A DNA stretch of 38,063 bases from Pseudodesulfovibrio sp. (GTDB lineage Bacteria > Desulfobacterota > Desulfovibrionia > Desulfovibrionales > Desulfovibrionaceae). Position 1 is the first letter of the stretch. The number at the start of each line of letters is the position of its first letter. Location: positions 1 through 38,063 of the forward strand of contig JAFLJT010000030.1 of assembly GCA_022712855.1 (NCBI GenBank). The letters are read 5' to 3'. The position numbers and the translations under genes were made by a program. Of the stretch, positions 7,818 through 34,088 are shown piece after piece. The notes below the pieces were generated by a model. The model worked only from the letters and a program-made list of their open reading frames with translations. It was not told the DNA's origin and made no database searches.

Positions 7818-9278
7818 CTAAAACGATTCGCTGACTGACGAGCTTTTTGCCTTTGTGAATTCATGCCGGGAAATCTGGTCCGGCGTCTGATCCGGCATGC
7901 CATACGTGGCCTTCTGTCCTGTGATGACCCAGGATCCTTCCTCTCGCAATCTGCCCATATCCCAACGCGGTACTGTGGCCAGCCGAGTCGGATCATCCGG
8001 CAGAAGCCCTTCGCGGACAAGGCGTTGCAGGTCGGCCTGGGGACTGACCCCATGAACCTGCATGATCTCCAGAGTTTGCTCGTTGAGATAGTCGGGGACC
8101 GTCTCGCCCTCGGGGATGAATGCTCGCATGGAATACAGCGTCGGGTAGATGTCCGCATCATACCGGCCGGTTCTATTGAGCGATTCCATCATATATTCGC
8201 CCACACTCGCCGGGCTGCCGATCCCCATATCGATGTAATCACGGCCTCTCTCTGCAAGGCCACAACGTAGGTCCATGTCTTCCACGACCTGCCGGATCCG
8301 GTCCTTGAGCGTTTCAAATGAAATATTGAGTACGGGCCGATTGCGCGGCATGGGAGATTCCACGCCGTTGTAACTGGATAAAACCGCGCAACCGCTGGCC
8401 ATGCCTTCATAGCCCAACACCCCGCTTCCGCAAGATATCTGGTCGATGAGGATGTCCGCCTCTGTCAACTTGGCCCGCACCACTTCGTGGGGGACATCCT
8501 GCAGCAATTCCAGATGAAAATTCAAACCCTCGGCCTTCAATTGGGCAAGGGCATCTATGATACGGTCCGTTTGCTTGTAGAGAGTGCTGGACGGCGAATG
8601 CAAAATTATCGGCGTACGACGTTTAGGTATATTGCAGACAAATTCACGATTATTAATAATCGGGCCAGACTGGAAATATGGCCGAATCCCCACTGTTTGA
8701 CTCGGCGGAGCACAGACTATCGCGTCGGCATATCGCTCGGCCATGCGAGTATTGTGTAGTTTGTTGGCAAGGGCAGGATGGTAGCGACCAAGGGAAAGAA
8801 TATCGCGGTGGTTGGAGCAGCGCACCTTCGGCGTTTCAATATCACGCTTGTAATACGGATATCTACGGCCATGAGCACTCCAGAAGATCTTAGCCATCTC
8901 CGCATCCCGCACCTCGGTACCACACTGCCTGCAAATAATCGTCTTGCCCCTCTCCTTGAGCATGGGGACATCAACCATACGGGGCAAGAACGAGGTTCCT
9001 CCCACGAATATAAATATATCATATTTATCGACAAAATCGAAAAACTTGGGACCATACTGAACTGTAACACCACCATTGTCATCCTTCATGCAGGTGGTGC
9101 CATCGAGAAATTCGGCATCCATGAAAGTGTAGTCTGTTTTCTTATAAAACGGATGAATGCGGTTTGGCAGGACCAGGCTGTCTGCTTCATAACCCAATTC
9201 TTTGAGTCCCAAAGTAATGCTGGAAGTATACTTTGCCAGCTCTCCGGTGCCAACGAGTATGCGTGGGTTCGTCATCAT
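7818..9278 (-). CDS. Glycosyltransferase, GT-B fold (GT4-like)
   Basis: The 486-residue protein starts RILVGTGELAKYTSSITLGL. It has the C-terminal nucleotide-sugar-binding half of GT-B enzymes: ILHSPSSTLYKQTDRIIDAL, LLQDVPHEVVRAKL, EADILIDQISCGSGVLGYEGMASGCAVLSS and VEDMDLRCGLAERGRDYI. The E-x7-E-like region is represented by GYEGMASG. About 110 extra residues follow with no recognised domain. It would transfer a sugar from a nucleotide donor in the cytoplasm; donor and acceptor are unknown. It is the last gene of the minus operon. Its ATG overlaps the aminotransferase stop as ATGA (9278-9275) and GGGGGAGG lies just upstream. Confidence 0.82.
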   Translation of the reverse strand: MMTNPRILVGTGELAKYTSSITLGLKELGYEADSLVLPNRIHPFYKKTDYTFMDAEFLDGTTCMKDDNGGVTVQYGPKFFDFVDKYDIFIFVGGTSFLPRMVDVPMLKERGKTIICRQCGTEVRDAEMAKIFWSAHGRRYPYYKRDIETPKVRCSNHRDILSLGRYHPALANKLHNTRMAERYADAIVCAPPSQTVGIRPYFQSGPIINNREFVCNIPKRRTPIILHSPSSTLYKQTDRIIDALAQLKAEGLNFHLELLQDVPHEVVRAKLTEADILIDQISCGSGVLGYEGMASGCAVLSSYNGVESPMPRNRPVLNISFETLKDRIRQVVEDMDLRCGLAERGRDYIDMGIGSPASVGEYMMESLNRTGRYDADIYPTLYSMRAFIPEGETVPDYLNEQTLEIMQVHGVSPQADLQRLVREGLLPDDPTRLATVPRWDMGRLREEGSWVITGQKATYGMPDQTPDQISRHEFTKAKSSSVSESF

Positions 9279-23951: not shown

Positions 23952-25061
23952 ATGAGCTACACCTACGTCAAAGTCAGCACTCTGTCGCCACTCTATCTGG
24001 ACGACTTCTACGACCGCCATCCCGGCCTGGATGAGCAGGGGTACGCTGCGCAGTACGACGCGCTCATGGAGGATTCCCACGTCTGGGCGGACCATATCTC
24101 CCGCCACCTGAACGATTGTGGCGCAAGTGCCCATGAAATCATCTACAGTGCCGAACCGCTCCAACGGGCATGGGCGCGAGAACATGGCGTCAATGCTGAG
24201 GGCAAGGCACTGCTTGTGGAGCAACTCAAGACCCTCAAGCCGGATGTCGTTTTCCTGCATACCAGCTATCCCCTCTACGAGGAACTGGTGCCTATGGTGC
24301 GCGATCAGGTGCCCGGCGTAAAGCTGATCCAGGGCTGGGTCTGTGTCGGTTTTGGCGCGAAACATTACCCCCTGTTCCGATCCATGGATTTTGTGACCAC
24401 CTGCGAGACCGGTATTCATCAGCACCTGCTTGATGCCGGGGCCAGGGCCTTCCACATTATGCACGGATTCGAGCACTCATTACTCACCCGCTTAACGAAA
24501 ACCGGGCAACCCAGGCAGGACGTATTTTTCGCAGGCTCCCTGGTCATGTCCGACGAATACCATTTGAAACGAGCAAAACTCCTCGCGTCTCTGATTGATA
24601 TGAACGTGAATTTCGACCTCCATTCCAAACCCGTGGAAGTAAAAAGCACTGTGGCGGACTCCCTGCGAGAACGCATGCAGCCGCCCGTCTACGGTATTGC
24701 CATGTTCAAGGCACTGGCCAACGCGCGCATCGCCTTCAACATGCATATCGACATGACCAGCAGCGCGGCCAATATTCGCATGTTCGAGGCCACGGGCGTG
24801 GGCGCGTGTTTGCTGACCGACCGTCAGCCTGGCCTTGACCTGTTGTTTGAGGAAGACCGCGAAATCGTGGCCTATTCCTCACCCGAAGAATGCGCCGAAA
24901 AAGTGCGCTGGCTCCTCGACCACCCGGATGAGCGCCGGGCCATCGCCGTTGCCGGACAAAAACGGACCCTGACCGACCATCGGCTGGAAGAGAGGGTCGG
25001 CCAGTTGCACAAGATCGTACTCAAAGAATTGGACCGAGCTTCGAACTGGAGGAGCGTGTGA
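23952..25061 (+). CDS. CgeB-like glycosyltransferase
   Basis: The 369-residue protein has an N-terminal half with LKPDVVFLHTSYPLYEELV and a C-terminal half typical of CgeB-type GT-B enzymes: RQDVFFAGSLVM, RIAFNMHIDMTSSAANIRMFEATGVGACLL and EEDREIVAYSSPEECAEKVRWLL, then DHPDERRAIAVAGQKRTL. The R-x-F-E motif (NIRMFEA) is the nucleotide-sugar contact of this family. It transfers an unknown sugar in the cytoplasm. It begins 223 bases from the divergent asnB. Its last four bases overlap the GTG start of the FkbM gene (GTGA at 25058), so the two are translationally coupled. Confidence 0.85.
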   Translation: MSYTYVKVSTLSPLYLDDFYDRHPGLDEQGYAAQYDALMEDSHVWADHISRHLNDCGASAHEIIYSAEPLQRAWAREHGVNAEGKALLVEQLKTLKPDVVFLHTSYPLYEELVPMVRDQVPGVKLIQGWVCVGFGAKHYPLFRSMDFVTTCETGIHQHLLDAGARAFHIMHGFEHSLLTRLTKTGQPRQDVFFAGSLVMSDEYHLKRAKLLASLIDMNVNFDLHSKPVEVKSTVADSLRERMQPPVYGIAMFKALANARIAFNMHIDMTSSAANIRMFEATGVGACLLTDRQPGLDLLFEEDREIVAYSSPEECAEKVRWLLDHPDERRAIAVAGQKRTLTDHRLEERVGQLHKIVLKELDRASNWRSV

Positions 25062-25888
25062 GCGGACTGACGGGCTGGGCCCGCGCCATCTGTGGCATTC
25101 CCCGTTACTGGAAGCGCAGCCACGACACGCAGTACGTACGTCTGGCCATTATGCGCGAGACCACACCACGCTTCACACCCGGATCATATGACTTTCCCTT
25201 TGGCCGCGTGGACTATGCGGACTCAGCATCCTTCGAAGCGCAGTACTTTTCCATCTTCACCAAGGAAGAATATGCATTCGAGACAGACTCGGCCACTCCC
25301 GTCATTCTCGATTGTGGCGGCAACATCGGCCTTTCTTCACTCTGGTTCAAACAAAGGTATCCGGCAGCAAACATCACCGTATTCGAGCCAGGGCCAGACC
25401 TGTTTTCCATACTCAAGACCAACCTCGACCGCTTCGGGTTTGACGATATCCACGCAGAACAGACGGCTGTCTGGAACGAAGACACGACCCTGTACCTTGG
25501 CAACGATGCGGCGGACGGCGGATTTGTCTCCGAAGGTGAACGACAGGGAAGCCGTGCTATCAAAGCGATCAGGCTGGCTGAGCGCATCAATGGGCCGGTG
25601 GATCTGCTCAAACTCGATATCGAGGGTGCTGAATATGACGTCATGCGCGATCTGGCACAGACAGGGAAGCTCAACCACATCCGGGCCATTGCCGGAGAAC
25701 TGCACGCCGGGTCGGATGACACCGGCAATGTCGGTGAGCTTCTGTCCACTCTGCATGACCACGGGTTCAAGACGACCTTGTCCTATGCGCGCCCCGCACC
25801 CGCCTTGTTCTGCCGGACCGAGGCCACTCCGTTCCCGTGCTTGCGCGACGGGAAGTACCTTGCCATTTTCTACGCCTGGAAAGCATAA
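25058..25888 (+). CDS. FkbM family methyltransferase
   Basis: The 276-residue protein shows PVILDCGGNIGLSSLWF, the SAM-binding motif I of FkbM enzymes, then ITVFEPGPDLFSILKTNL and VDLLKLDIEGAEYDVM, the family's most conserved motif. FkbM enzymes O-methylate sugars or polyketides in glycan and antibiotic clusters. The start is a GTG overlapping the previous stop as GTGA, with GGAGGAGC just upstream. The next gene starts three bases after its stop. It would cap or decorate a sugar laid down by one of the flanking glycosyltransferases; the acceptor is unknown. Confidence 0.92.
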   Translation: MSGLTGWARAICGIPRYWKRSHDTQYVRLAIMRETTPRFTPGSYDFPFGRVDYADSASFEAQYFSIFTKEEYAFETDSATPVILDCGGNIGLSSLWFKQRYPAANITVFEPGPDLFSILKTNLDRFGFDDIHAEQTAVWNEDTTLYLGNDAADGGFVSEGERQGSRAIKAIRLAERINGPVDLLKLDIEGAEYDVMRDLAQTGKLNHIRAIAGELHAGSDDTGNVGELLSTLHDHGFKTTLSYARPAPALFCRTEATPFPCLRDGKYLAIFYAWKA

Positions 25889-25891
25889 TTC

Positions 25892-27142
25892 ATGAAGATA
25901 CTCTACCTCAGCACACTCGATATCATGGGCGGCGCGGCACGCGGTGCGTATCGGCTGCATCGCGGCCTGCTCGCCAAGGGTGTTGACTCGACCATGCTCT
26001 GTTGTCGCAAGTTCAGCGACGATCCCACGGTCATGGGACCGAGAAATATCTGGGAAACGCGCTACTGGGATTTCCGGCACTGGGCCACCAAGGGACTGAT
26101 CCGACAGCAACGCTCCGCCAATCCGATCATCCATTCCGTCAATTGCCTGCCCACGGGCATGGCCCGGCGCATCAATAGCTTTGACGCAGACATCGTGCAG
26201 ATGCACTGGATCGGCTCGGAAATGATTTCCATCAAGGAAGTGGCAGACATCGAGCGTCCAATTGTCTGGCGACTGGCCGATCAGTGGGCCTTCAGCGGAG
26301 CCGAGCACTACGCTCTGGCCGGACAAGCCGAACGGTACGCCGAGGGCTACCACACAGACAACCGACCAGCCGGATACAGTGGACTGGACCTTGACCGCTG
26401 GACCTGGGACCGGAAGATGAAACACTGGCTGGACAAGCCTATGACCATCATCACTGGCTCCAAATGGCTAGCCGAGTGCGCCAAGCGCAGTATGCTGTTC
26501 AAAGACAAACGTGTGGAAGCGGTCAAGAGTGGCATCGATACCTCGATCTACAAACCTCTAGGCCGCCAACAGGCACGAGAAATTCTGAACCTGCCACAGG
26601 ACAAAAAGCTGGTACTGTTCGGCGCACTCTCCGCCACCAGCGATCCTCGCAAGGGTTTCCACCATCTCACACCGGCCTTGCAAAACGTGGCCGTAGCTTT
26701 TTCCGGGCAGGTAGAGGCATTGGTTCTCGGCGCTTCCAAACCAGTTAAAGCGCCAGACTTCGACATGCCAGTCCACTACATTCCCAAGCTTTCGGATGAC
26801 GTGAGTCTGGCCTTGGTCTATTCTGCCGCCGATGTGTTGGTGGCTCCCTCGACCATGGACAACCTGCCATTCTCCGTCATGGAAGCCCAGGCCTGCGGCA
26901 CGCCGTGCGTGGCCTTTGCCGTAGGCGGACTGCCAGACATGATCGAACACGACACAAATGGCTGGCTGGCCGCCCCCTTTGATACCAGCGATCTGGCCGA
27001 CGGCGTCAAGCGCGTGCTCGGAGATGAAAGCCTACGCAATGAATGGTCGACACAAGGCAGAGACAAGGCCGTGCGTGAGTATGCCGTAGAAGTTCAGGCA
27101 GACACGTACATCAATATTTACAAAGAAATTCTCGAAGGATAA
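25892..27142 (+). CDS. Family 4 glycosyltransferase (GT-B fold)
   Basis: The 416-residue protein begins MKILYLSTLDIMGGAARGAYRL-like, with the GGAARG loop that in WcaC-type GT4 enzymes binds the acceptor side. Its C-terminal half has VEAVKSGIDTSIYKP, LVLFGALSATSDPRKGF, YSAADVLVAPSTMDN and LPFSVMEAQACGTPCVAF, with the E-x7-E-type donor contact in that last segment. VGGLPDMIEHDTNGWL follows. This is the pattern of retaining glycosyltransferases of colanic-acid and O-antigen loci. No membrane segment is present. It lies three bases after the FkbM gene and six before the epimerase gene, so all are probably one transcript. Confidence 0.93.
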   Translation: MKILYLSTLDIMGGAARGAYRLHRGLLAKGVDSTMLCCRKFSDDPTVMGPRNIWETRYWDFRHWATKGLIRQQRSANPIIHSVNCLPTGMARRINSFDADIVQMHWIGSEMISIKEVADIERPIVWRLADQWAFSGAEHYALAGQAERYAEGYHTDNRPAGYSGLDLDRWTWDRKMKHWLDKPMTIITGSKWLAECAKRSMLFKDKRVEAVKSGIDTSIYKPLGRQQAREILNLPQDKKLVLFGALSATSDPRKGFHHLTPALQNVAVAFSGQVEALVLGASKPVKAPDFDMPVHYIPKLSDDVSLALVYSAADVLVAPSTMDNLPFSVMEAQACGTPCVAFAVGGLPDMIEHDTNGWLAAPFDTSDLADGVKRVLGDESLRNEWSTQGRDKAVREYAVEVQADTYINIYKEILEG

Positions 27143-27148
27143 CCGGAT

Positions 27149-28075
27149 ATGAAAAAAGTATTGGTCACTGGCGGATGCGGCTTTATCGGCGCAAATCTCC
27201 TGCCCATACTCCTTAAGCAGGGGTGCGAAGTGCGCGTGTTGGACAGCCTTATTCTGGGCAGCACCGCGTACATAACAGGTCTGGATGTGGAGTTCATGGA
27301 AGGTGACATCCGCAACGCTGACGACACAGCGCGGGCTGCCACGGGCATGGATACTATCATTCACCTGGCCGCCTTCGGCTCGGTGGTAGCCTCAGTGGAC
27401 GACCCCAAGACAAATTTCGACATGAATGCGGGGGGCACACTCTGCATGTTGCAGGCAGCCGTGGACGCCGGAGTCGAGCAATTCGTGTTTTCATCCACAG
27501 GCGGAGCGCTCATCGGCAATGCCACACCACCTGTAAACGAGCAATCGCTCCCCAAGCCGATCTCCCCTTATGGCGCAGGAAAACTGGCTTGTGAAGGATA
27601 TTTGAACGCCTTTGCTGGTTCCTACGGACTGACCACAAAGATCATGCGTTTTGCCAATGTTTACGGCCCATACAGCGGACACAAACTTGGTGCGGTGACC
27701 GCATTCATCAAGGCGGTAGAGGCGGATGAACCCATCGTCATTTTCGGCGACGGTTCAGCCAGTCGCGATTTTCTCTATGTCGACGATCTGTGCAAGGGCA
27801 TTGTTGATGTCTCTCTGGCGGACCTTGAGCCAGCCACTGTGCTGCATTTGGCATCGGCCCGCGAAACTTCCGTGCTGGAGCTTGCCCGGCTCATCGCACA
27901 GACCGGGGGCAAATCGGACCACCCAATCATCTTGAAAGACGCCCGCCCCGGCGAGGTACAGCGGAATTTTGCCGTCTATGATCTGGCCAAGGAAACCATC
28001 GATTTTAACCCGACCATCAGTCTTGAGCAAGGTTTGCCCAAGACTTGGGATTGGTTCCGGGCGCATGTGCTGTAG
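27149..28075 (+). CDS. NAD-dependent sugar epimerase/dehydratase
   Basis: The 308-residue extended SDR protein begins KKVLVTGGCGFIGANLL, with the NAD motif at 7-13. FSSTGGALIG (114-123) gives Ser/Thr residues, and SPYGAGK gives Tyr141 and Lys145. RFANVYGPYSGHKLG and SRDFLYVDDLCKGI are common to UDP-glucose and UDP-GlcNAc 4-epimerases of WbpP/GalE type. The length is at the short end of this group, but all core motifs are present. I cannot tell epimerase from related activities. It sits directly behind a GT4 gene and 63 bases before the sulfoquinovose synthase gene, and may supply or alter the UDP-sugar used there. Confidence 0.9.
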   Translation: MKKVLVTGGCGFIGANLLPILLKQGCEVRVLDSLILGSTAYITGLDVEFMEGDIRNADDTARAATGMDTIIHLAAFGSVVASVDDPKTNFDMNAGGTLCMLQAAVDAGVEQFVFSSTGGALIGNATPPVNEQSLPKPISPYGAGKLACEGYLNAFAGSYGLTTKIMRFANVYGPYSGHKLGAVTAFIKAVEADEPIVIFGDGSASRDFLYVDDLCKGIVDVSLADLEPATVLHLASARETSVLELARLIAQTGGKSDHPIILKDARPGEVQRNFAVYDLAKETIDFNPTISLEQGLPKTWDWFRAHVL

Positions 28076-28138: not shown

Positions 28139-29350
28139 ATGAGCGGACATGTCATCATTCTCGGCGGCGACGGATTTTGTGGCTGGCCGACGGCTCTGGG
28201 GTTTTCTCAGGCCGGATACGACGTCACTATCGTCGACAATCTTTCACGGCGAAAAATTGACATAGAGCTCGAATGCGAGTCGCTAACGCCGATCCAGCCC
28301 ATCCTCCGACGCATCAAGGCGTGGAACAAGCTCACAGGCAAGACCGTCGATTACGTCAACCTCGACGTGGCCGTGCAGTACCACAAGCTTCTGACCCTCA
28401 TCGAGGATACCCGGCCCACAGCCATCATCCATTTCGCCGAACAACGTGCCGCGCCGTATTCCATGAAGAACAGCTTCTGCAAACGGTATACGGTCAACAA
28501 CAACATCAATGCCACCCACAACGTCCTGGCCGCCATTGTCGAATCCGGCGTGGACACCCATCTGGTCCATTTGGGAACCATGGGTGTGTATGGGTACGGC
28601 ACTGCTGGCATGCCCATTCCCGAGGGATATCTCAAGGCGGTGGTCGAAGGTGCCGAGGGCCCCAAGGAAATCGAAATCCTGTATCCCGCCAATCCGGGCA
28701 GCGTCTATCACATGACCAAGACGCAGGACGCCCTGATGTTCTACTATTACAACAAAAATGACGGACTACGGATAACCGACCTGCACCAAGGCATTGTATG
28801 GGGAACCAACACCCAGGAAACCATGAGAGATGAAGCTCTCATAAATCGTTACGACTACGATGGCGACTACGGCACTGTCCTCAACCGATTTTTAATGCAG
28901 TCGGTCATAGGCCACCCCCTGACAGTGTACGGCTGCGGTGGCCAGACCCGCGCCTTCATCCATATCAATGATACTGTCACATGCATCAAGATGGCCGTTG
29001 AAAACGCGCCCAAACGCGGTGATCGGGTCCAGATTTTCAATCAGGCAACTGAAACGCGGACCGTTCGCGATCTGGCCGAGATTGTTGCCGAGCAGACCAA
29101 TGCTGAAGTCCGCTACTACAAAAACCCACGCCGCGAAGACGCCGTTAATCAGTTGCAGGTAGACAACACCAAATTCCTTGAACTCGGGCTCAAGCCGACC
29201 ACTCTTGGCAACGGGCTGATGCAGGAAGTCATCGATGTCGCACAAAAGTACATCGGCCGATGTGACACGTCCAAGATCATCACGGATTCACTCTGGTCGA
29301 AAGAGATGGAAGTGGACACGCGCGGTTCCAGTACACCGTATGAAGAGTAA
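28139..29350 (+). CDS. sqdB: UDP-sulfoquinovose synthase
   Basis: The 403-residue protein matches the SQD1/SqdB family along its length. IILGGDGFCGWPTAL (NAD site) is followed by VDNLSRRKIDIELECESLTP, HFAEQRAAPYSM, HLGTMGVYG with Thr147, SVYHMTK with Tyr190 and Lys194, DLHQGIVWGTNTQET, RYDYDGDYGTVLNRF and GHPLTVYGCGGQTRAFI. The family converts UDP-glucose and sulfite to UDP-sulfoquinovose through a 4-keto-glucose-5-ene intermediate. Thr, Tyr and Lys correspond to the catalytic residues of the plant enzyme. CGGAGG lies nine bases before the ATG. No gene resembling an SQDG lipid synthase stands next to it, so the product may enter a glycan through the neighbouring transferases. The symbol is by family resemblance. 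Confidence 0.9.
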   Translation: MSGHVIILGGDGFCGWPTALGFSQAGYDVTIVDNLSRRKIDIELECESLTPIQPILRRIKAWNKLTGKTVDYVNLDVAVQYHKLLTLIEDTRPTAIIHFAEQRAAPYSMKNSFCKRYTVNNNINATHNVLAAIVESGVDTHLVHLGTMGVYGYGTAGMPIPEGYLKAVVEGAEGPKEIEILYPANPGSVYHMTKTQDALMFYYYNKNDGLRITDLHQGIVWGTNTQETMRDEALINRYDYDGDYGTVLNRFLMQSVIGHPLTVYGCGGQTRAFIHINDTVTCIKMAVENAPKRGDRVQIFNQATETRTVRDLAEIVAEQTNAEVRYYKNPRREDAVNQLQVDNTKFLELGLKPTTLGNGLMQEVIDVAQKYIGRCDTSKIITDSLWSKEMEVDTRGSSTPYEE

Positions 29351-29447
29351 CCTTCCCTTCACGCAGTTGCCTGCTACGCGGTACCGGTTTGGATAAAGCT
29401 GTCCATCTCTTGTTGCCCGTCCCATGCCTTTGGCGTATCAAGAGTCC

Positions 29448-31103
29448 ATGAAAATCGGAATTATGCAACTCAATCCCGTTGTCGGCGATCTCGACGGCAA
29501 TGCGATGAAAATCCGTGAGGCTGTGGCTCAAGCGGCCCGGCTGGGTGTTGATTTCTGCCTGACTTCCGAGCTGGCTCTGACTGGCTACCCACCTCGTGAC
29601 CTCTTGTTGTACGAAGGATTCGTGGACAGGGCCGAAGCTGAAGCGGAAAAGCTCGCCCGCGAACTCAAAGACATGCCGCCGCTGCTCTTGGGCACGATTT
29701 GCAAGAATCGCTCGGAACAAGGCAAGCCTGTTTTCAATTGCGCCCACTGGTGCAAAGACGGCGAAATTAGTCAAACCATCCGCAAAACGTTGCTGCCCAC
29801 CTATGATGTTTTTGACGAAGCCCGCTATTTCGAGCCTGCGCCCACTGGCAGCTCTACACAAAATATCCTTGAATTTAACGGCCAGACCATCGCCGTGACT
29901 ATTTGCGAAGATGCGTGGAACGACAAGGATTATTGGGATACCCGCTCCTATGTGCGCGATCCGCTTGAGGAAGCGAAGGCCCATGACTTCGACTGCATCG
30001 TCAACCTGTCGGCATCGCCTCTTTTCCTTGGCAAACAACTGCTCCGTGAAGATATGCTCGGCGCGGTGGCCCGCAAATATGGTGTCCCGGTCATCTATGC
30101 CAATCAGACTGGCGGCAATGACGATCTCGTTTTTGACGGCCGTTCCTGTGCTTTTGCAGACGACGGTTCGCTGATAGCCCGCGCCCCCGGCTTTGATGAA
30201 GCCGTGCTTGTTGTCGACACCGAGAGTCAAAACAACATCATTGCTGACGACGATTTTTCCCGCGAGGCTGAGACATGGCACGCGCTGGTCCTCGGCACCC
30301 GAGACTATGTGCGCAAAAGCGGTTTTTCCACCGCCCTTGTCGGCTTGTCCGGCGGCATCGATTCCGCCGTCACTGCCGTGGTGGCCGCCGAGGCGCTGGG
30401 CGCAGAAAATGTCACTTGCGTACTCATGCCCTCGCCATACTCCAGCCAAGGCAGTCTCGACGACTCCATCACCTTGGCCGAGAATCTCAATATAAAGACA
30501 CTCACCCTGCCCATTGAGCCGATCATGGGAGCCTTCGACACCGCTCTGGCCGAGCCGTTTGCCGGACGCGGTGTGGATACCACTGAAGAGAACATCCAAT
30601 CGCGCATCCGGGGCAACCTGCTCATGGCGCTCTCGAACAAATCTGGCGCCATGCTCTTGACCACAGGCAACAAAAGCGAACTGGCCGTCGGCTACTGCAC
30701 CATCTACGGCGACATGTCCGGCGGTTACGCCGTCATCTCCGACGTGGACAAAACAGGCGTCTTCGGCGTTGCCCGCTGGTACAACGAAAATATCGGCCCG
30801 AACATCCCCGAACCGATCATCACCAAACCGCCGTCCGCAGAACTCCGACCTGACCAAAAAGACGAAGATTCCCTACCCCCTTACGATATCCTCGACGGCA
30901 TCCTCGCCCTGCACGTAGAAAAACACCAATCCATGCAGCAGATCATCGAAGCCGGATACGAAAAAGAAACAGTCGAACAGGTCCTGACCCTCGTACGATA
31001 CGCCGAATTCAAACGCCGCCAAGCAGCACCGGGCATCAAGCTGACACCTCGTTCTTTTGGTACTGGTTGGCGCATGCCATTAGCTTGCAAACGAGAACTG
31101 TAA
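29448..31103 (+). CDS. nadE: Glutamine-dependent NAD+ synthetase
   Basis: The 551-residue enzyme joins a nitrilase-type glutaminase domain to an ATP-dependent NAD synthetase domain. The glutaminase triad is Glu41 (TSELALTGYPPRDL), Lys113 (RKTLLPTYDVFDE) and Cys153 (TICEDAW). The synthetase has the PP-loop GLSGGIDSAVTAVV near residue 300, MPSPYSSQGSLDDS, and LTTGNKSELAVGYCTIYGDM. It makes NAD+ from nicotinic acid adenine dinucleotide, ATP and glutamine. It is a housekeeping gene sitting within the glycan locus. The start at 29448 (KIGIMQLNPVVGD) has AAGAG upstream; an ATG at 29424 lacks a binding site. The following 450 bases hold hairpins that probably end this transcript. Confidence 0.96.
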   Translation: MKIGIMQLNPVVGDLDGNAMKIREAVAQAARLGVDFCLTSELALTGYPPRDLLLYEGFVDRAEAEAEKLARELKDMPPLLLGTICKNRSEQGKPVFNCAHWCKDGEISQTIRKTLLPTYDVFDEARYFEPAPTGSSTQNILEFNGQTIAVTICEDAWNDKDYWDTRSYVRDPLEEAKAHDFDCIVNLSASPLFLGKQLLREDMLGAVARKYGVPVIYANQTGGNDDLVFDGRSCAFADDGSLIARAPGFDEAVLVVDTESQNNIIADDDFSREAETWHALVLGTRDYVRKSGFSTALVGLSGGIDSAVTAVVAAEALGAENVTCVLMPSPYSSQGSLDDSITLAENLNIKTLTLPIEPIMGAFDTALAEPFAGRGVDTTEENIQSRIRGNLLMALSNKSGAMLLTTGNKSELAVGYCTIYGDMSGGYAVISDVDKTGVFGVARWYNENIGPNIPEPIITKPPSAELRPDQKDEDSLPPYDILDGILALHVEKHQSMQQIIEAGYEKETVEQVLTLVRYAEFKRRQAAPGIKLTPRSFGTGWRMPLACKREL

Positions 31104-31382: not shown

Positions 31383-31558
31383 CCGCCAGAGGCTCCCTAA
31401 AGAAAAACCCCAGCACACTCACGCCGTTGGCAACAAATTTGCATCGTTTACTCAACTGAACGAAAGATGTAGGTATTTTGACACTGGGCACTGTGCGAAA
31501 CGGCATTCCACATCCCCGGCAAACTATATGTATGACCTTAAAATGATAGGTGATTCTC

Positions 31559-32923
31559 ATGGCTCAAAGTAAGCGTTACTGCATTTTGTTGGCAGCTGGT
31601 TCCGGCAACCGCATGAATTTTCCTACACCCAAGCAGTTCTTGAAACTGGCTGGCCGCACTGTGATCGAGCATACGTTGGATGCTGTGGAAACCCATCCTG
31701 AAGTGGATGAGATTTTCATTGTTATTGATTCGGCATATCGGTCGTATCTGGAAGAAGTGCTGCTGCGGAATAATTATACGAAGGTCACCAAGATTCTGAA
31801 TGGCGGCGCGACGCGGAGGGAAAGCTCTGCATCGGGTATATTTGCGGTGGAAGAGGAAGACGCGCTGGTGCTGCTGCATGACGCGGTTCGGCCTTTCGTG
31901 AGCCATAAGATTGTCAGTGACTGCTTCAAGAAGCTGGAAGAACATGTTGCTGTGGATGTTGCTATCCCGGCCGTGGATACGATCATTGAAGTGGATGATA
32001 CAGAGTGTATTTCATATATTCCTGACCGCTCGATGTTACGCCGTGGCCAGACGCCGCAGGGCTTCCAGGCGAGTGTTCTTCGAGAGGCGCATGAACGCGC
32101 AATGAAGGATACGGGCGTTGAGGTGACGGATGATTGTGGGCTGATCCTGAGATATGGATTGGGTGACGTGCATGTGGTTCCGGGCGAAGAACAGAATATT
32201 AAACTGACGTATCCTGAAGATTTGTTTTTGGCGGATAAGATTTTCCAGTTGAAGACGGTGACTTTGCACCCCGCGCTGGAAAAGGACTCGCTGAGAGGTA
32301 AGGTTATCGTTGTGTTTGGTGCCAGTAGAGGCATCGGAGAGTGCGTCATGCAACAGGGCCGGACAGGCGGGGCCAAGATGTTTGGCTTTTCCCGTAAGGA
32401 TGATGTTGATGTGCGTGATTATGCCTCTTTGGAAAAGGCGCTGAAGGGCGTGTATGATAAGACCGGGCGTATCGATGCTGTTGTTAATACGGCGGCTGTG
32501 CTGCGGTCTGGTACACTGCTGGCTCGTGATATTGATGATATTGAGCAGGAAATCGCCATCAACTACACTGGCTCGGTGAATGCGGTGAAGGCGGGACTGC
32601 CATATCTGAATGAATCACGCGGCTCCATTGCTCTGTTTACGTCCAGTTCGTATACCCGAGGCCGTTCCCGTTACACTATTTATTCCTCGACCAAGGCCGC
32701 TGTGGTCAATCTGGTGCAGGGGCTGGCCGAAGAACTGCACGGCGACGGTGTGCGTATCAACGCCATCAACCCGGAGCGGACGAATACACCCATGCGTCGA
32801 GAGAACTTCGGCGTGGAACCCGAGGGTACACTCCTGTCAGCCGAGGCGGTTGCCAAGGCGACGCTGGAGACACTGATGGCGGACTTCTCCGGTATGGTCG
32901 TCGATGTAAGGCGCGAGGCGTAA
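31559..32923 (+). CDS. Bifunctional ribitol-5-phosphate cytidylyltransferase / ribulose-5-phosphate reductase (Bcs1/Acs1-like)
   Basis: The 454-residue protein is a fusion. Residues 1-235 are an IspD/TarI-type cytidylyltransferase: CILLAAGSGNRM (8-19), Lys25 in PTPKQFL, HDAVRPF (108-114) and RRGQTPQGF. Residues 245-454 are a short-chain dehydrogenase: VVFGASRGIGE (251-261), NTAAVL, and YSSTK with Tyr375 and Lys379. The same order occurs in Haemophilus Bcs1/Acs1, which reduces ribulose-5-phosphate and couples the product to CTP to give CDP-ribitol. The ATG at 31559 has AGGTGA five bases upstream; a GTG at 31550 is less likely. Codons end more often in G and T than in the neighbouring genes, which hints at separate acquisition. 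The transferase gene begins four bases after its stop. Confidence 0.88.
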   Translation: MAQSKRYCILLAAGSGNRMNFPTPKQFLKLAGRTVIEHTLDAVETHPEVDEIFIVIDSAYRSYLEEVLLRNNYTKVTKILNGGATRRESSASGIFAVEEEDALVLLHDAVRPFVSHKIVSDCFKKLEEHVAVDVAIPAVDTIIEVDDTECISYIPDRSMLRRGQTPQGFQASVLREAHERAMKDTGVEVTDDCGLILRYGLGDVHVVPGEEQNIKLTYPEDLFLADKIFQLKTVTLHPALEKDSLRGKVIVVFGASRGIGECVMQQGRTGGAKMFGFSRKDDVDVRDYASLEKALKGVYDKTGRIDAVVNTAAVLRSGTLLARDIDDIEQEIAINYTGSVNAVKAGLPYLNESRGSIALFTSSSYTRGRSRYTIYSSTKAAVVNLVQGLAEELHGDGVRINAINPERTNTPMRRENFGVEPEGTLLSAEAVAKATLETLMADFSGMVVDVRREA

Positions 32924-32927
32924 ACGA

Positions 32928-34088
32928 ATGACAGCGGAGCTGGAACAGATATTAAAGCAGTTCGATGAACTGGCGCGAATCACCCCAAAGGATTCTTCAA
33001 ACATTGTCTTCATAGGTGAGGCCAACGGGTTTTTCACAGGCAATGTGAAACACCTGTTCCTCCATGTTGTCCGGAATCATCCGGAGATCAATGCCACGTT
33101 CCTCACCACCCATAAGCATATCTCCAGAATGCTGCGCGAGGCAAAACTGCCTGTTGTTTTCTTTCCCGAAGACAACTCCGTCACTGTTTTAGCCAAGGCG
33201 CACACCATCGTGGTGGATACGTTTAATTTTAAGCAGAGCACGTTCGCTCCGCTGACCAACTATGCGCGTATCATTCAGCTCTGGCACGGCGTTGGGTTCA
33301 AGAAAATCGGCCTTGTTGAAGAACAGTCCATTGTCACGAAACAATATAATGACATGAATCTTGGCAGGCTTTATTCCGGCTACGATACGGTGGTTTCCAC
33401 CTCGCCGTTCTATTCTGAGGAAGTGTTCAAAAAATCTTTCAATGCCAAACATTTTGTGGACTTTGGCTATCCGCGTAACGACGCACTCTTTCGTCTGCCG
33501 ACCAAGGAGTCCATGCTCAATTGCGACACGGACGCCTTCCGTCTGGTTGGCTCGTTGAAAAAAACGCACAAGACCGTCCTCTATGCCCCCACTTTTCGGG
33601 ATAATGTCGGCTCGCCCTTTTCCGGCGGGCTGGATTTTCAGAAGCTCCAGGAATTTTTGGAAGAAAAGAAGCTCCAGCTCTTCATCAAGACACATACACA
33701 GTCAGGGATAAGCCTGACGTCGACCACGCCGAATATCACCATTTATCGCAATGAGTGCGATGTTTACCCTTTCATGCGCATGATCGATGTCATGATGACA
33801 GACTATTCGTCCATCTACATGGACTACCTTCTGCTCGACAGACCGGTGGTCTTCTACTGCCCGGATTATGTGGAATACATCACCCAGAACCGGGAATTCC
33901 AGTTCCCCTACGATGACATGACCCCCGGTACAAAGTGCATGAATCAAGAAGAGTTACATGCCGCACTCGAACTGGCGGCCTATGGTGATGACGGGTATGA
34001 AGAACAGCGACTCGCTCTCAAAGACAAGGCGTTCCTTCACCATGATGGCGATTCAGCCAAGAGGATCGTCGAGTATATACGCGGATAG
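32928..34088 (+). CDS. CDP-glycerol/CDP-ribitol phosphotransferase (TagF/TarL-like)
   Basis: The 386-residue protein carries the family's marks in order: IIQLWHGVGFKKIG (about 115-128, with the catalytic-type His120), VLYAPTFRDN, LFIKTHTQ and DVMMTDYSSIYMDYLLLDRPVVFYC. These enzymes move glycerol-phosphate or ribitol-phosphate from the CDP form to a glycan or polymer, working at the inner face of the membrane. Being four bases behind a CDP-ribitol synthase gene, it most likely uses CDP-ribitol. It lacks the N-terminal extension of long TagF polymerases, so it may add one or many units. In a Gram-negative cell the product would be a capsule or other ribitol-phosphate-bearing glycan. Confidence 0.9.
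   Translation: MTAELEQILKQFDELARITPKDSSNIVFIGEANGFFTGNVKHLFLHVVRNHPEINATFLTTHKHISRMLREAKLPVVFFPEDNSVTVLAKAHTIVVDTFNFKQSTFAPLTNYARIIQLWHGVGFKKIGLVEEQSIVTKQYNDMNLGRLYSGYDTVVSTSPFYSEEVFKKSFNAKHFVDFGYPRNDALFRLPTKESMLNCDTDAFRLVGSLKKTHKTVLYAPTFRDNVGSPFSGGLDFQKLQEFLEEKKLQLFIKTHTQSGISLTSTTPNITIYRNECDVYPFMRMIDVMMTDYSSIYMDYLLLDRPVVFYCPDYVEYITQNREFQFPYDDMTPGTKCMNQEELHAALELAAYGDDGYEEQRLALKDKAFLHHDGDSAKRIVEYIRG

Follow-up and report, generated by a model that had tools for sequence, protein, structure and literature searches.

The stretch of DNA analysed here (the window) is one whole contig of 38,063 nucleotides from a Pseudodesulfovibrio sp. genome that comprises 369 contigs and is 87.7% complete. Exactly at 28139-29350 on the forward strand, it carries an intact open reading frame (ATG start, zero internal stops) for a protein of the UDP-sulfoquinovose synthase (SQD) family, the single close match to this protein in its own genome. 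The SQD gene is the last of a tight run that reads glycosyltransferase, FkbM, GT4, epimerase, SQD, with gaps of −4, 3, 6 and 63 bp (Table 1). This run is conserved in one other genome of the genus (G023) and, without the FkbM gene, in another (G006). Whether the NAD+ synthase gene downstream is part of the run is uncertain. The GT4 glycosyltransferase is a candidate user of the sulfonated nucleotide sugar considered below. A sequence-only reading of this DNA had placed glycosyltransferase, FkbM and epimerase genes ahead of SQD and no synthase of the sulfolipid SQDG beside it. Our annotation agrees: these genes lie upstream, and an adjacent SQDG synthase was not recognised.

Table 1. The SQD gene run and the gene that follows it
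Feature	Position	Strand	Basis
Glycosyl transferase-like protein (Glyco_trans_1_2), first gene of the run	23952..25061	+	Pfam; conserved in G006 and G023
FkbM-family methyltransferase	25058..25888	+	Domain matches; conserved in G023, not seen in G006
GT4 glycosyltransferase	25892..27142	+	Pfam; conserved in G006 and G023
NAD-dependent epimerase, SQD-linked SDR clade, 308 aa; Tyr141, Lys145, Lys179	27149..28075	+	Profiles, tree, neighbourhoods
UDP-sulfoquinovose synthase family protein, clade B, 403 aa	28139..29350	+	Homology, alignment, tree
Glutamine-dependent NAD+ synthase, 73 bp downstream of SQD	29424..31103	+	NCBIfam; in G023, not seen in G006

The wider window holds DegT aminotransferases, further epimerases, formyltransferases, a cytidylyltransferase, an IspD-SDR fusion and a CDP-glycerol glycerophosphotransferase-family protein. 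Its ribitol-phosphate-type and cytidylyltransferase genes fit several surface polymers, with O-antigen, capsule and flagellar glycan as candidates, and the window ORFs scanned gave no match to flagellar families. At 31550-34088, the IspD-SDR fusion is followed 4 bp later by the CDP-glycerol glycerophosphotransferase-family gene, an arrangement that may add a decoration of the ribitol- or glycerol-phosphate type to a Gram-negative glycan. On the minus strand, a 486-aa ORF (7818-9278) overlaps a DegT gene by 4 bp and has no Pfam match at E 0.001.

Among solved structures, the best relative of the SQD protein is Arabidopsis SQD1 (1i24; E 7e-92, residues 4-396), while other SDR families match at 1e-9 or worse. 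The top NCBIfam match is UDP-sulfoquinovose synthase (NF041015), with 324 bits against a cut-off of 575. We dropped this shortfall as a disqualifier and give it no weight, since a related protein from Sinorhizobium meliloti scores 332 bits and fails equally. All five members checked of the branch to which both proteins belong (clade B, see below) fall under the cut-off, as do two proteins of the other branch, clade A (453 and 501 bits).

The catalytic triad (Thr147, Tyr190, Lys194) is present, as are the glycines of G-XX-G-XX-G (G9, G12, G15), which are invariant in our alignment A1. The protein also matches the family fingerprint [ST]MGxnYx3K, as given in the accessible text of a review (PMC8987622), with T147, M148, G149, Y190 and K194. 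For Agl3 of Sulfolobus acidocaldarius, the available portion of PMC4388408 reports that alanine mutants are inactive at the His of HFAEQR, the Arg of EQR, the Met of TMG, the Tyr and the Lys. Counterparts of all five are found here (H98, R103, M148, Y190, K194). The same portion of that paper describes the Thr mutant T144A as still active, and the alanine mutant of Glu147, which follows TMG, as strongly impaired with residual activity. The counterparts of Agl3 Glu147-Tyr148 are Val150-Tyr151, with a two-residue insertion after Val150 (TMGVYGYGT versus TMGEYGT), and the SQD1 stretch NPRVEAEEHYY reads NPRREDAVNQL. Each of the 14 clade-B rows in alignment A1 has these changes, including that of the S. 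meliloti gene, which lies in an sqdBDC-like operon. The Glu after TMG is also missing from eight clade-A proteins with TMGVYG and hence does not define the family. The sequence-only reading credited the protein with all SQD1/SqdB motifs; the triad and the fingerprint bear this out, the Glu after TMG and the EEHYY stretch do not, and the claim thus appears slightly overstated.

A quick tree of 133 rows (LG+G4, SH-aLRT support only, Agl3 outside the row set) divides the SQD family into two branches with a support of 97. Clade A (39 rows) includes SQD1, and clade B (94 rows) includes the window protein, which is 55–89% identical to other clade-B proteins and 33–42% identical to those of clade A. 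Clade A also takes in two long-branched plasmid proteins (L070, L071), flagged by the tree tool as unsure in position, and holds the SQD genes of most SQD-bearing Desulfobacterota genomes examined. Grouping with non-sulfonating epimerases would have spoken against the sequence-only reading; the protein instead groups with SqdB-type synthases, far in sequence from other epimerases. Within the genus, two of the 35 other genomes carry a clade-B gene (G006 and G023; 89% and 87% identity to the window protein), six carry clade A instead, and most are without a full-length SQD.

Clade B is a large group: a genome scan yielded at least 593 stretches with the pattern and at least 579 confirmed relatives, of which the best 80 were kept. 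Counts on these 80 loci thus describe the nearest relatives and not the whole of clade B. The 80 come from Pseudomonadota, Actinomycetota, Bacillota, Cyanobacteriota, Chloroflexota, Nitrospirota, Thermodesulfobacteriota and others. One clade-B SQD gene (L081) comes from a Candidatus Pacearchaeota bin, where its contig is 9 kb long, and groups in the tree with a Desulfohalobiaceae gene, which reflects either transfer or a binning error.

What clade-B proteins make is suggested by their neighbours. In S. meliloti and on three Rhodobacterales plasmids, the clade-B gene (product 58–61% identical to the window protein, with TMGVYGY in common) precedes two genes that are homologous across these loci, for a glycosyltransferase and an NAD(P)-dependent oxidoreductase/epimerase, which is the sqdBDC arrangement. 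Accessible parts of two papers name SqdB, SqdC and SqdD for S. meliloti (PMC10315480) and report that deletion of sqdB from the sqdBDC operon abolished SQDG in Rhodobacter sphaeroides (PMC11346425). From its neighbours, the S. meliloti clade-B gene would be the studied sqdB; the R. sphaeroides SqdB is likened here by operon gene order alone. Separately, the SQD gene of a record labelled pSymB (L063, CP090106.1) adjoins tol-pal, ruvAB and tilS, a chromosomal-looking setting, and the label may be wrong.

By clustering, seven of the 80 nearest clade-B loci have within 4 kb of SQD a GT4 gene that we take to be SqdX-type, from its N-terminal sequence and its gene setting. Five of these seven loci also supplied tblastn queries, and one such GT4, when scanned, passed no NCBIfam cut-off. 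In tblastn searches of the same 80 loci (E 1e-15), a PAPS-reductase homologue lies within 1.7 kb of SQD in nine and none lies beyond 4.5 kb in 691 kb (binomial p 0.0015; p 0.003 with eight loci, the two Moorena records being taken as one). Four of the loci counted (L064, L065, L144, L149) also supplied queries, and an earlier clustering had found the reductase in six of the 80 (8/93). Two plasmid SQD genes likewise have a homologue 1.0 and 2.8 kb away, and that of a Pelagovum plasmid passes the NCBIfam phosphoadenylyl-sulfate reductase cut-off. Such a neighbour is the expected signature, as an enzyme that makes sulfite then adjoins one that uses it. Because clade B contains sqdBDC-type operons along with SqdX-type and PAPS-reductase neighbours, we accept the window protein as a putative UDP-sulfoquinovose (UDP-SQ) synthase.

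No PAPS reductase or dedicated sulfite-producing gene was found among the window ORFs scanned. The sequence-only reading had made its argument about sulfite conditional on the host being a sulfate reducer. The genome contains dsrA (592 bits, cut-off 393) and aprA (1054 bits, cut-off 642), both above curated cut-offs that none of 14 control genomes passed. By these markers the host very probably gains energy by reducing sulfate, a process in which sulfite is an intermediate, and the sulfite for SQD most likely comes from the dissimilatory APS reductase.

The epimerase gene just upstream of SQD encodes an SDR protein with YxxxK that lacks the Tyr of the usual I/VYG motif. The nearest solved structures are UDP-glucose 4-epimerases (4zrm, E 8e-52), and the resemblance to 4zrm, a Thermotoga-type GalE, covers nearly the whole length and includes YxxxK and an STGGA stretch. 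Unlike GalE, the protein misses the NCBIfam galE cut-off (152 of 262 bits), and in a tree of the phylum matches described below its clade is parted from GalE-type matches with 98 SH-aLRT. A stretch with Lys179 reads GPYSGHKLGAV, where GalE-type matches mostly have GPRQxxxSAVIP. This lysine is invariant in 29 linked epimerase rows and is not exclusive to them, being found in 3 of 25 GalE-type rows as well (L196, L204, L215). As a guess, Lys179 and the small residues at 118-120 might face the C6 sulfonate. Neither the equivalog cut-off nor tree placement makes this protein a GalE, though by its homology it may still work like a C4-epimerase.

Relatives of the epimerase adjoin SQD genes in distant loci of clades A and B. 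In 394 other genomes of the phylum, where the best 4 or 5 candidates per genome were scored and members may thus be missed, we obtained 144 epimerase matches at E 1e-45; SQD was found at E 1e-60 in 35 genomes. A location ≤1.5 kb from SQD was seen for 11 of 16 matches with at least 200 bits, 2 of 25 with 180–200 bits and 1 of 103 with less than 180 bits; a match co-located with SQD in G314 scores 175.9 bits. All 41 matches with at least 180 bits were fetched and sorted into 16 members of the window epimerase clade and 25 GalE-type sequences. Thirteen of the 16 lie ≤1.5 kb from SQD, versus none of the 25 within 8 kb (Fisher p 3e-8), a comparison that is partly post hoc, as the clade features were first read off linked members and then applied. 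Two clade members have SQD elsewhere in the same genome (G074, G290), and one lies near a contig end in a genome with no SQD at E 1e-15 (G060). A profile of the linked members, which themselves score high on it by construction, gave 414–471 for the three unlinked members and ≤313 for GalE-type sequences. Among 59 relatives, an epimerase match of at least 170 bits was present in 7 of 12 genomes with SQD and in none of 47 without, each of the seven ≤5.4 kb from the SQD gene; one of the relatives (G040) has a 161-bit partial match and no full-length SQD.

By profile, a clade member lies within 6.5 kb of SQD in 19 of 41 clade-A loci (all 11 from the relatives and 30 of 31 phylum genomes, G198 being left out) and in 9 of 93 clade-B loci. 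Beyond G006 and G023, the latter comprise two Desulfobacterota-type bins, two Sphingomonadales, Marinicaulis, Nocardioidaceae and Rubrobacter, and two of them (L107, L118) have a PAPS reductase next to SQD in addition to the linked epimerase. The epimerase is absent from 11 lipid-linked clade-B loci, which versus 9/82 is not significant (p 0.59). A plasmid search at E 1e-40 gave matches to the window epimerase in 29 records, none of them one of the 22 SQD plasmid records; two of the 29 were examined and neither belongs to the SQD-linked clade, a second epimerase query gave nothing at E 1e-45, and four SQD plasmid loci (L070, L071, L235, L236) contain no clade member. The epimerase thus belongs to an uncharacterised SDR clade that recurs beside SQD genes of both branches, a new element of such loci.

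In the pathway that we propose, the synthase would oxidise UDP-glucose at C4 with bound NAD+, eliminate the C6 hydroxyl, add sulfite to the resulting 5,6-ene and reduce C4 again, giving UDP-SQ. This mechanism is the one proposed for Agl3 and SQD1, transferred here by homology. Sulfite would be supplied by the host's dissimilatory APS reductase. The adjacent epimerase would convert UDP-SQ before the neighbouring glycosyltransferases act, with C4 epimerisation as the likeliest step, and the sulfonated sugar would enter the surface glycan of the surrounding locus and not a sulfolipid. Taken part by part, it is probable that the clade-B protein is a UDP-SQ synthase feeding a surface glycan, and the chances that the epimerase acts on UDP-SQ look evenly balanced. 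More tentatively, and rather less likely than not, the two enzymes may form a route to UDP-sulfofucose (UDP-6-deoxy-6-sulfo-galactose) in which the epimerase inverts C4. Since the epimerase looks like a specific partner of SQD, the final sugar may not be sulfoquinovose itself.

One alternative is that UDP-SQ is made for SQDG by an unrecognised transferase and that the SQD gene stands among glycan genes by chance. Being in clade B does not by itself settle the choice between lipid and glycan, because clade-B genes elsewhere adjoin SQDG genes, namely the seven SqdX-type loci among the 80 nearest and four plasmid loci with SqdD. The window GT4 is itself weakly SqdX-like (1.1e-11). In the genome as a whole, an SqdX query returned partial GT4 matches only (best 1.2e-13) and SqdD had no match at E 10. 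The sequence-only reading had called for a search for sqdX and sqdD, and neither SqdD nor an SqdX that would serve as SQDG-forming glycosyltransferase was found in this genome. At 87.7% completeness, a lipid-side transferase could be missing from it. The two genus mates with the same gene, both near-complete, likewise have no SqdD and no SQD-specific SqdX, and seven clade-B Desulfobacterota genomes gave no SqdD match at E 1, with both control records positive. G006 and G023 do hold a PHP-GT4 fusion ('PHP' being our reading of the N-terminal sequence, Pfam showing the GT part only) whose similarity to SqdX extends along most of the protein (1.7e-47 and 1.2e-45). We rejected this fusion as a dedicated SQDG synthase: at E 1e-40 it is in 31 of 36 genus genomes, and hence not tied to SQD, and it is absent from the genome studied here. 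With the gene run and its neighbours glycan-type, this lipid role is improbable. Still less probable is that the SQD protein can no longer sulfonate and instead produces a different nucleotide sugar, for example the 5,6-ene or a 4-epimer. The Val in place of Agl3 Glu147 and the altered C-terminal stretch would fit this; against it, the same changes occur in the S. meliloti sqdBDC-like gene and in genes beside a PAPS reductase, Agl3 E147A keeps residual activity, and the other residues probed in Agl3 are conserved. A sulfonated surface sugar, as the sequence-only reading had it, is the best reading of the locus. Its glycan setting, kept in G006 and G023, and the lack of a recognised lipid-side transferase stand; sulfonation is deduced from homology, and the flagellar variant of that reading found no family match among the window ORFs scanned.

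A stronger challenge concerns the epimerase, which may well be an ordinary sugar epimerase (e.g. for UDP-galactose) unrelated to sulfoquinovose; we hold this quite possible, somewhat short of even. Its nearest structures are UDP-glucose 4-epimerases with which it shares STGGA, epimerases are common in glycan loci, and no clade member was seen in the available flanks of 22 of 41 clade-A and 84 of 93 clade-B loci. Yet the contrast in proximity to SQD between clade members and GalE-type sequences argues against this explanation, as does the pairing itself, which spans both SQD clades and three phyla in differing gene orders.

Compared with known systems, the locus differs from sqdBDC operons in that SQD stands in a glycan run and the window has no SqdD or SqdC homologue. 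Arabidopsis SQD1 shares full-length homology, the triad and HFxEQR with the window protein, but SQD1 falls on the other branch (97 SH-aLRT), retains the Glu after TMG and the EEHYY stretch, and serves plastid sulfolipid, unlike the glycan setting here. Agl3 is alike in purpose, being described in the accessible text of PMC4388408 as a UDP-SQ synthase used for glycan and not lipid, as proposed here. It differs in serving an archaeal N-glycan and in having Glu147. Clade-B relatives in polysaccharide-type loci can also be pointed to, in a hand-picked set: L079 (UDP-GlcNAc 2-epimerase, GT2, hexapeptide and DegT neighbours), L080 (flippase and sulfotransferase), L116 (sulfotransferase) and L164 (flippase).

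As far as its accessible text goes, a 2026 review (PMC12890257) assigns SQ production to phototrophs and certain archaea. Clade B would widen the candidate producers to sulfate reducers, Actinomycetota, Bacillota, Chloroflexota and others, partly in polysaccharide loci, and if our reading of the locus is right, dissimilatory sulfite would be tied to cell-surface chemistry. Sulfofucose occurs in glycolipids of Fucaceae and N-glycans of Thermoplasma acidophilum, according to the available part of a 2025 paper (PMC12421959), which states there that its biosynthetic pathway had not been identified so far. The SQ synthase of T. acidophilum is given in PMC4388408 as NP_394533. In the open-access literature searched, we found neither an enzyme for sulfofucose biosynthesis nor any description of sulfate-reducer glycans that contain SQ or sulfofucose. 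The linked epimerase clade is a concrete candidate for such an enzyme and turns a plausible annotation into a testable pathway. Should the route to UDP-sulfofucose exist, this clade would supply the first enzyme proposed to make the sugar; sulfate reducers and other bacteria would place sulfofucose in surface glycans, the former drawing the sulfite from energy metabolism; and such bacteria would be a source of the sulfofucose degraded by Paracoccus.

Some other SQD loci have features of their own. Of 41 clade-A loci, 24 have a PseB-like SDR gene with an SDK motif ≤100 bp from SQD and 28 have one ≤2 kb away (e.g. L023:2451-3515, L025:7072-8307, L030:6348-7418), compared with a single weak match ≤2 kb away in 93 clade-B loci. 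In Desulfobacterota, clade-A SQD may thus be one step of a longer route to a nucleotide sugar. In a Desulfovibrionaceae locus (L165:406-16248; SQD the same as in L098), a clade-B SQD gene is flanked on one side by GT2-like and radical-SAM-like genes, labels that are our reading of the sequences, and on the other by a TolC-like gene together with the gene for a 2099-aa protein with pre-peptidase C-terminal repeats, possibly a glycosylated secreted protein. On a Natrinema plasmid (L236:9171-11164), a haloarchaeal SQD homologue is directly followed by two NAD-dependent epimerase genes outside the SQD-linked clade. Finally, one genome of the phylum carries two SQD genes ∼3 kb apart (G065:C1:72406-77935), whose products are 42% and 39% identical to the window protein.
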